Below, piece by piece: positions 53,582-64,000 of a DNA stretch of 64,000 nt. The notes under the pieces were generated by a model that saw nothing but the letters and a program-made list of their open reading frames with translations, did not search any database and was not told the origin of the DNA. Position 1 is the first letter of the stretch. Each line of letters opens with the position of its first letter. Made by a program: the position numbers and the translations under genes. Source of the DNA: Closterium sp. NIES-65 (Eukaryota; Streptophyta; Zygnematophyceae; Desmidiales; Closteriaceae); the NCBI GenBank assembly GCA_948144175.1, contig CANXME010001298.1, positions 496,001 to 560,000 on the forward strand, written 5' to 3'.

Positions 53582-56500
53582 ATGGTTAGTTGCTAACCTT
53601 ATCCAGACCGTCCGTGCGTGATTCCTTTATTTTGTTTTCTTTTTTCCTAATGCTGATCTTGACTCTAGCGGCAAGTTCGCCGGTTTTGATTTTTTATTCT
53701 CATTGGTTACTTTCCAACCCTAAATTACTACTCCGCCTAGGACCCCTTGCGATTTCATCTGTCTCTGTATCTGTTTGTACCTCGTCTTCTCTCGTTTCTC
53801 TCGATCCCCTCGTTTGTCGCAGGGTCGGAAGTTTCTGTGCATTCTGCTGATCGCGATTCTTGTCGCGGCCAGTTTCCACGTGTCTGAATGCAAGAAGAAG
53901 AAGAAAAAGCGGACAGTAGCGACGGAACCAGCACTTGACGAAAGCGAAACCACCACAGTGGTAACCCGATCTGCAACGAAAACGGCAGCAGCAGGCGAAA
54001 CAGCGTCGCAGAATGACGAACCAGCTGCGGACGCGGCAGCAGCCGACGAAGACGCAGACGCCGACGCGCCTTCGGAAACTATTCCCCCGAGGAAGCCGGC
54101 AGCCACTATAACGCCGGCTACTAAGGCGGCGGCTGCTACGGCGGCAGATGCGGAGGAAGATGCGGAAGTAGCGGAAGCCGCTTCGACAGCTGATGCTGAC
54201 GTGGCGACGAAGGGCGACGACGCCGATGGCGACGCGGCTGAGGCTGACGCCGCCGCAGATGCCGCCGAGCCGGACGCCGCGGATGCCGCTGCGGAAGACG
54301 GCGCAGCGGCAAAGGCGGCGACAGGCAAGCCAGTCGCGGCGGACGACGATGCCGCTGCAGCTGATGCGGAAGGCACGGAAGAGGCGGAAGGCGCTGCGGC
54401 TGGTGGGACCACAGACGACGCGGCTGCGGGTGGTACTGCGACTGCAGCAGCGGCGGCGACGGCGGCGGCGGCGGAGAAGCCGAGTTCGGCTCCTGGGTCC
54501 GTGTCCGATGCTGGCCCTCTTGCATGGAAATCCGCTAATATGTCGCGCGACGACATTGATCCCAAAGGTGAGACGACGAGTTTTGAGACGTCCCAAACTG
54601 GGCTGCTCGCATGGGAATTCGCATCGCCAGCAGCATGTTGCGAAAGAGACGTGGACCTCAAATGTGAGTCGGGCTGCTCGAATGGGACTTCGGCAACATG
54701 TCGTGAGACGACGTGGATCCCAGAGGTGAGGACGTGGATCCCAGAGACGAGACGACTAGATTAGAGACGTGCGAGAACTGGATCCCCCAACAGGTTGCGC
54801 GACGACGTGGATCCCAAAGGTGGGCCCCTGCTGACCGTAAAGCGATTGGGGGGTTACGCATTTGACTTGGCTGGTTGCTGTGGGCGGGTATCCATGCAGT
54901 GGGGCCAGACAGAACAAGAAGTTGCCAGCACGAAGCAAAAACACTTTAATTGCCACCACTTCGCCATGGCAAACACGAATGGCATTCGATAATTACATCC
55001 AACACCCACATGGATACTACACCCCGCTCCCCCTTCCAGGCCCATGTGGGCGCGACTCCAAGTTCCGCTGCCTGCCAGGGCATGGGTCCGGGGAACGCGG
55101 GCTGGGTTTGCTGTGCTTGTTAGTTGCGTCATGGCATCTACGTGGTTATTCAATCCCCTCTACGTGGTTATTCAATCCCCTCTACGTGGTTATTCAATCC
55201 CCTCTACGTGGTTATTCAATCCCCTCTACGTGGTTATTCAATCCCCTCTACGTGGTTATTCAATCCCCTCTACGTGGTTATTCAATCCCCTCTACGTGGT
55301 TATTCAATCCCCTCTACGTGGTTATTCAATCCCCTCTACGTGGTTATTCAATCCCCTCTACGTGGTTATTCAATCCCCTCTACGTGGTTATTCAATCCCC
55401 TCTACGTGGTTATTCAATCCCCTCTACGTGGTTATTCAATCCCCTCTACGTGGTTATTCAATCCCCTCTACGTGGTTATTCAATCCCCTCTACGTGGTTA
55501 TTCAATCCCCTCTACGTGGTTATTCAATCCCCTCTACGTGGTTATTCAATCCCCTCTACGTGGTTATTCAATCCCCTCTACGTGGTTATTCAATCCCCTC
55601 TACGTGGTTATTCAATCCCCTCTACGTGGTTATTCAATCCCCTCTACGTGGTTATTCAATCCCCTCTACGTGGTTATTCAATCCCCTCTACGTGGTTATT
55701 CAATCCCCTCTACGTGGTTATTCAATCCCCTCTACGTGGTTATTCAATCCCCTCTACGTGGTTATTCAATACCCTCTACGTGGTTATTCAATCCCCTCTA
55801 CGTGGTTATTCAATACCCTCTACGTGGTTATTCAATCCCCTCATACGTGGTTATTCAATCCCCTCTACGTGGTTATTCAATACCCTCTACGTGGTTATTC
55901 AATACCCTCTACGTGGTTATTCAATACCCTCTACGTGGTTATTCAATACCCTCTACGTGGTTATTCAATCCCCTCTACGTGGTTATTCAATCCCCTCTAC
56001 GTGGTTATTCAATACCCTCTACGTGGTTATTCAATACCCTCTACGTGGTTATTCAATCCCCTCTACGTTGTTATTCAATCCCCTCTACGTGGTTATTCAA
56101 TACCCTCTACGTGGTTATTCAATACCCTCTACGTGGTTATTCAATCCCCTCTACGTGGTTATTCAATCCCCTCTACGTGGTTATTCAATCCCCTCTACGT
56201 GGTTATTCAATACCCTCTACGTGGTTATTCAATCCCCTCTACGTGGTTATTCAATCCCCTCTACGTGGTTATTCAATCCCCTCTACGTGGTTATTCAATC
56301 CCCTCTACGTGGTTATTCAATCCCCTCTACGTGGTTATTCAATCCCCTCTACGTGGTTATTCAATCCCCTCTACGTGGTTATTCAATCCCCTCTACGTGG
56401 TTATTCAATCCCCTCTACGTGGTTATTCAATCCCCTCTACGTGGTTATTCAATCCCCTCTACGTGGTTATTCAATCCCCTCTACGTGGTTATTCAATCCC

Positions 56501-64000: not shown

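Follow-up and report, generated by a model that had tools for sequence, protein, structure and literature searches.

Partial copies of exons recur in the introns of two unrelated genes, a GLG1-like gene and TRM61, within 64,000 nucleotides of the genome of Closterium sp. NIES-65 (positions 496001–560000 of a contig labelled C1295, hereafter the window; the assembly spans 874 Mb in 2400 contigs). We call a partial exon copy sitting in an adjacent intron an echo. The locus raises the question of whether duplication here is aimed at exon–intron junctions, as an earlier note on this DNA had it, or whether a general process leaves traces that survive mainly at exon edges.

Gene models and sample

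Thirteen genes were modelled with a spliced protein-to-genome aligner: five GLG1 loci, TRM61, five CCT subunits, mitochondrial HSP60 and one HSP70. This is a convenience sample, in which six of about eleven chaperonin genes were picked for compactness and the HSP70 gene was included for the echoes that its match table had already shown. The models are homology-based, and the aligner at times mistook an echo for an exon or set an edge wrongly. Model exons shorter than 20 bp were left out of the counts, as were several judged to be spurious or echoes (the first and last of L041, the last three of L042, and the first model exon of L040 and of L039). The 5′ exons were likewise excluded for GLG1-E in its second copy, where the start of the first kept exon was placed by hand. 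The 151 modelled introns have a mean length of 544 bp and a median of 456 bp, and fit the means of 485–554 bp given for Closterium strains in an excerpt of PMC10407611. The chaperonin sequences look like those of green plants.

The GLG1-like gene was assigned to its family by a profile match to Pfam PF00839 (E 1.4e-56). Its spliced model in the window comprises exons 1–9 plus 5 bases at the start of exon 10; exon 1, which is the ATG alone, is a weak call. The gene is present as five diverged loci, A–E, each with two genome copies, and the window gene is A. Exon 7 (60976–61187) is a single 212-bp exon in A and is divided into 103 + 109 bp in B, C, D and E, reflecting either the exact loss of an intron from A or intron gain in B–E. 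In D and E, exon 9 (62437–62620 in the window) is interrupted after CAGCAG by an additional intron that A, B and C lack; for E, the exon 9 region corresponds to 9306–9962 of E1 in the oriented C2026 region. The TRM61 model has five exons, and the frame holding the TRM61 end gave a GCD14 match with an E value of 7.8e-6, just over the cut-off.

Exon echoes in the window

Self-BLAST of the window revealed partial direct copies of GLG1-like exons 2, 3, 4, 5, 6, 8 and 9, and an exon 10 echo became recognisable once the gene was traced beyond the window end (Table 1). Self-alignment of the locus thus bears out the earlier observation that partial copies of exons 2, 3, 4, 5, 6, 8, 9 and, probably, 10 lie in adjacent introns, together with that of an echo of TRM61 exon 3.

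Table 1. Exons and echoes of TRM61 and the GLG1-like gene, in window coordinates
Feature	Positions	Strand	Basis or similarity
TRM61 exon 3 echo: acceptor and 5′ part	7511–7591	+	79.5% to 7648–7735, period 137
TRM61 exon 3	7700–7899	+	spliced model
GLG1-like exon 2, 745 bp	53823–54567	+	spliced model
Three tandem echoes of exon 2 3′ end, up to its donor	54682–54822	+	self-BLAST, 77–83% identity
Exon 3 echo: acceptor and 5′ part, upstream of 22-bp minisatellite	55022–55116	+	75% to 58010–58096, E 2e-9
GLG1-like exon 3	58026–58142	+	spliced model
GLG1-like exon 4	58597–58683	+	spliced model
Exon 4 echo 1: 3′ part and donor	58739–58810	+	81%, period 79
Exon 4 echo 2: 3′ part and donor	58880–58958	+	78%
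Exon 4 echo 3: 3′ part and donor region	58982–59061	+	78%
Exon 4 echo 4: 3′ part and donor region	59084–59133	+	84%
GLG1-like exon 5	59533–59617	+	spliced model
Exon 5 echo: interior part, no aligned splice site	59736–59790	+	74.5%
Exon 6 echo: acceptor and 5′ part; second short fragment at 59803–59823	59891–59988	+	80.6%, period 165
GLG1-like exon 6	60094–60271	+	spliced model
GLG1-like exon 7, no clear echo	60976–61187	+	spliced model
Exon 8 echo: acceptor edge and 5′ part	61411–61460	+	76%, period 165
GLG1-like exon 8	61580–61673	+	spliced model
Exon 8 donor 20-bp tandem array: 4 units, counting the real one; second genome copy, 5	61678–61743	+	
Exon 9 acceptor 26-bp tandem array: 10 units, counting the real one; second genome copy, 1	62179–62436	+	
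GLG1-like exon 9	62437–62620	+	spliced model
Two short exon 9 interior echoes (62696–62715 and 62870–62895)	62696–62895	+	85% and 92%
Exon 9 echo: 3′ part and donor	62924–63041	+	76%, period 389
Exon 10 echo: 5′ part	63806–63875	+	86.5% to 63990–64063, running past window end

For the junctions of these two genes, repeats were compared with 150 local shuffles that kept local dinucleotide content, and in this test only, five minisatellite stretches were masked. In the GLG1-like gene, 9 of the 18 junctions in the window fall within significant repeats reaching both sides, with the repeat reaching one side only partly in 3 of the 9. For TRM61, one junction in eight is clear (the exon 3 acceptor) and one more is borderline. 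The earlier description of duplicated junctions at nearly every boundary of two unrelated genes was hence too strong: about half of the GLG1-like boundaries are involved, and one or two of those of TRM61.

Copying across the sample

Intronic copies of coding sequence lie almost always on the same strand as their source (225 versus 2 on the opposite strand in the 13 genes). Copying is found in independent genes: at E ≤ 1e-3, 12 of the 13 have an intronic copy. Its intensity varies, since paralogue C has none at this threshold and TRM61 has one. Altogether, an intronic copy exists for 40% of exon bases, or for 39% when HSP70, the gene chosen for visible echoes, is set aside; by gene, the share is lowest in paralogue C (0) and TRM61 (3%), stands at 21% in window GLG1 and peaks at 66% in CCT7. 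In the chaperonin and HSP70 match tables, neighbouring matches to identical family positions are also listed.

In the GLG1 family, the copies come from the gene in which they sit. When the echoes of this family were compared with the exons of all five paralogues, 76 of 78 fit their own gene best; of the other two, one fits another paralogue by one score point and one fits no exon. Derivation from other paralogues, seen in 1 of 78 by that single point, was rejected. Local tandem duplication is a known kind of event; what appears unusual, in figures drawn from this genome alone, is its intensity.

Junctions, splice sites and unit size

Most echoes contain a splice site (123 of 153, in 12 genes), and the earlier statement to that effect therefore holds in the wider sample. 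The copied sites are mostly intact, with AG retained in 65 of 70 acceptors and GT in 46 of 55 donors. Such content, and the occurrence of at least one intronic copy in 12 of 13 genes, would be expected if duplication were targeted to exon–intron junctions, for instance through co-transcriptional R-loops or pre-mRNA-templated repair. Coverage argues against this. Significant local repeats span 98 of 290 junctions (34%) in the 12 genes, a sample below genome scale, compared to 35% of exon-interior points and 43% of intron-interior points, the latter figure including minisatellites. For copies of at least 88% identity at six loci, the values are 14 of 180 junctions (7.8%), compared to 17.3% of points in introns and 7.5% in exons; both tests, like the distance and two-site counts below, still contain faulty model edges and echoes taken as exons. 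Junctions in this sample thus show no enrichment over introns, an outcome that the earlier note had itself named as one that would speak against its reading. For exon bases no more than 80 nt from a splice site, the share with an intronic copy is 43–50%; it drops to 34% at 80–120 nt and to 17% beyond 120 nt. This flat-then-falling curve is the profile of ∼150-bp units straddling one site, not of edge-targeted copying. We reject junction targeting on the coverage of junctions versus intron and exon interiors, and consider it very unlikely. Copying looks general rather than splice-site-directed, and echoes would contain splice sites because only those exon copies that straddle a junction would survive.

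Copies bearing both splice sites are scarce. They account for 2 of 153 echoes, or 3 if the outer edges of terminal model exons count. At periods of up to 230, 3 of 91 echoes have two sites, compared to 16% of junction-spanning units in a simulation that placed units of the observed lengths at random (p = 0.0003), a shortage that alignments ending early in decayed intron could inflate.

The spacing between echo and exon has a median of 168 (n = 153), with 59% between 110 and 200, and the modal bin is 140–160 on the acceptor and donor sides alike. Shorter slippage also occurs, as in the 26-bp exon 9 acceptor array, which has CTGCT at both its start and its end, and the 20-bp exon 8 donor array. 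Low-copy duplications confined to introns tend to be smaller, with a median of 125 (n = 53). That the unit originates at nucleosome or Okazaki scale is an idea only, and a nucleosome-sized unit stays one because the intron-only duplications show no mode near 150 bp.

Differences between genome copies

Most of the loci examined occur twice at high identity, as either haplotypes or recent duplicates. The second genome copy, which is highly similar, shares many of the echoes, whereas others are not alike in the two. The TRM61 exon 3 echo is present in both and is therefore older. By unit count, the genome copies differ at the exon 9 acceptor array (10 versus 1) and at the exon 8 donor array (4 versus 5), and the former illustrates the earlier observation that both fresh and decayed copies are present. 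In paralogue D, one genome copy has one more 138-bp, 97% identical copy of an exon end with its donor. In HSP70, three period-179 copies and a partial fourth of an acceptor region (exon at L043:4040) have no counterpart in the other genome copy, and two further exon-containing insertions, one of 167 bp copied from exon 2 and one of 248 bp copied from exon 3, distinguish the two. Duplication thus looks recent and recurrent.

At the two HSP70 loci (L043, C2039:693001–699500; L044, C957:893001–898500), exon 3 and its echoes are mostly synonymous variants that encode almost one protein. Where the real HSP70 exons differ between the genome copies, they do so mainly in segments that have echoes.

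The assembly of this repeat-rich genome in 2400 contigs brings to mind an artefact. However, half of the 153 echoes are 78–90% identical to their exons, and the same echoes recur on separate contigs. Because the second genome copy carries many of the echoes, with some differing, we assign assembly error next to no probability.

A proposed origin of the echoes

The explanation that we favour (probability roughly 0.8) is general local tandem duplication, filtered by selection for copies that splicing hides. Genes of this genome would undergo frequent local tandem duplication, mostly in units of ∼110–200 bp and additionally as shorter slippage arrays, and these events would land across genes without special regard to splice sites. 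A duplication inside an exon would alter the protein, and duplication of a whole exon would add an extra exon to the mRNA. One that straddles a single splice site would be invisible, the copy being removed along with the intron, because the spliceosome keeps using the complete exon. Since single-site straddling is hidden in this way and in-exon duplication is not, surviving exon copies are expected at exon edges. What survives would be a fringe of partial exon copies on the intron side, acceptor-type upstream and donor-type downstream. The molecular step was probably slippage, unequal exchange or microhomology repair, and selection would be the cause of the echo geometry. Unit-wide similarity is mixed: several arrays align over more than one period, while often the alignment covers just the exon part and nearby intron, the intron parts having diverged as judged by eye.

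These considerations bear on two assertions of the earlier note. A local duplication process, recent, recurrent and bringing mostly intact splice sites into introns, is borne out; that it is aimed at junctions is not. The assertion that ordinary intron evolution does not predict such junctions is doubtful, as duplications straddling one site would be hidden by splicing. Several results count against general duplication with a splicing filter, among them the variation in intensity between genes. A single unit-size spectrum, in the absence of selection or detection effects, does not explain why intron-only duplications are shorter. A loose end is the low ratio of nonsynonymous to synonymous differences (N/S) of the echoes, which neutral decay leaves unexplained.

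Alternative explanations and amino acid constraint

For the N/S count, overlapping matches were cut to one per place (215 copies without overlaps, 225 with), and the edges of HSP70 exon 3 and the end of GLG1-A exon 11 were placed by hand. Copies in the 13 genes show 918 synonymous and 650 nonsynonymous differences, a ratio of 0.71, compared to a neutral expectation of ∼1.59, calculated with the mutation spectrum of this genome's introns and with omega on the exon side taken to be 0.1. The 4868 compared codons contain 13 stops, and of the 88 gaps 73 shift the frame and 15 preserve it. The window GLG1 gene is near neutral (1.71, with 1.58 expected), and all other genes with more than one copy are lower (0.46–0.92). 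Changes polarised to the echo side in B, D and E comprise 170 nonsynonymous and 114 synonymous, a ratio of 1.5 relative to a one-sided expectation of ∼3.0; the outgroups here included A, whose model had a faulty frame in this count, and synonymous polarity is noisy at such distance. Exchange between echoes and exons, divergence imported from other genome copies and coding use of echoes could all contribute to the low values.

Coding use, in which echoes would serve as alternative exon pieces kept by selection at the protein level, could account for the low ratio, a count of 13 stops in 4868 codons and the mostly intact AG and GT dinucleotides. Yet two-site echoes are nearly absent, and the spacings of the 153 echoes show no clear bias toward multiples of three (59, 46 and 48 for remainders 0, 1 and 2), findings that argue against general use; the same lack of bias led us to reject frame-preserving alternative sites. 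Furthermore, 73 of 88 gaps are frameshifts, and echoes of the window gene decay near neutrally. On these sequence features, general use of echoes seems highly improbable. Exchange of sequence between echo and exon, by gene conversion, unequal exchange or recombination between diverged genome copies, is possible, although we hold it at somewhat less than even odds. It would explain the synonymous differences of echoes as gained under coding selection, and in this respect it is compatible with, and complements, tandem duplication filtered by splicing. The low N/S points in this direction, as do the synonymous variants evident at the HSP70 locus, where comparing the exons between genome copies gives 44 synonymous differences across 342 echoed codons and 6 across 210 unechoed ones. 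The pattern is reversed in paralogue D (6 in 355 echoed versus 17 in 488 unechoed codons), and paralogue A has 1 in 229 versus 3 in 607. B, C and E say little, because B and E total 0–2 differences and C has no echoed codons. The pooled excess is thus driven by HSP70, a locus picked for visible echoes. Moreover, GLG1-family echoes match their own gene best in 76 of 78 cases, not other paralogues. A more specific scheme, in which nucleosome-sized tandem duplications keep adding edge copies and exons trade sequence with these partial spares through unequal exchange or conversion, is rather unlikely. If true, it would place intronic DNA under protein-level constraint and make an exon edge renewable from its own echo.

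Two further origins concern the template of the copies and the introns themselves. Repair using the transcript, one of the mechanisms named in the earlier note, is disfavoured insofar as it means spliced mRNA, because most copies carry a splice site or flanking intron (123 of 153). Nominally, 9 of 224 copies span an exon–exon boundary with at least 20 nt on each side, and at least 3 of these 9 are at one doubtful intron of the HSP70 model. Alternatively, introns may have been born by tandem duplication of exon segments (the Rogers/Hellsten model), with echoes as leftovers. Consistent with this idea, exon 9 is divided by an intron in D and E but undivided in A, B and C, and in paralogue E the exon 9 intron and the next exon open with the identical 6 bases (p = 0.001). 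The copies that nominally cross exon–exon boundaries had likewise suggested it. However, a zero-offset similarity test flagged 3 of 142 introns against ∼1.4 expected. As a general cause, intron birth is not supported by this test, nor cleanly by the stricter exon–exon span test, and we give it very little credence.

Relation to known systems

Internal gene duplication, or tandem genomic duplication (Gao and Lynch 2009, cited in PMC4974935), reportedly consists of local direct duplication of segments within genes. The echoes are alike in being local, direct and within genes. They differ in that the survivors mostly straddle one splice site and are intronic, with 39–40% of exon bases copied in our sample of this genome alone. 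In the potato RdRp gene, according to an excerpt of PMC4974935, an intron was gained by a tandem duplication that included an acceptor and polypyrimidine tract, and an 83-bp duplication lies inside an intron. Both there and here tandem duplications carry an acceptor; the outcome was a new intron in potato, whereas we see no general sign of intron birth. Tandem mutually exclusive exons (PMC5740500 and PMC5224494) likewise place a copy of exon sequence with its splice site alongside the original, but copies with two sites are nearly absent here (2 of 153). Introner elements (PMC9860276) resemble echoes as repeated intronic sequence with splice signals, whereas echoes copy exons of their own gene. 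Among the titles and abstracts of the matches listed from the open-licence literature, none described single-junction exon echoes on such a scale.

If the sample holds genome-wide, introns of this species capture tandem duplication as it happens, and geometry reveals which classes are allowed and which are forbidden. The rate of small tandem duplication, the unit size and the selection against whole-exon duplications would then be measurable in one species. For annotation, the echoes are a warning: homology-based exon calling jumps onto them, as our aligner did, and RNA aligners may do likewise. The low N/S of echoes poses a testable question of exchange between exons and their intronic copies.

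Other features of the window

In GLG1 intron 2, a minisatellite (55137–58008; 22-bp unit, 130 copies, 2.87 kb) lies between the exon 3 echo and exon 3, and its length differs between genome copies by indels of 280, 419 and 286 bp. Next to the exon 10 echo, and apparently within its acceptor region, is an insertion of ∼660 bp (63150–63812) that is MITE-like in look, with 15-bp terminal inverted repeats identified by eye (AGCTTAGTGGGAATA). The exon 2 donor of TRM61 runs straight into a 5-bp AGGTG array of ∼13 copies, each containing GT (7259–7326). Between the two genes (10000–53000), scanned frames match domains of Copia-like and chromodomain Gypsy-like elements, and minisatellites are numerous.
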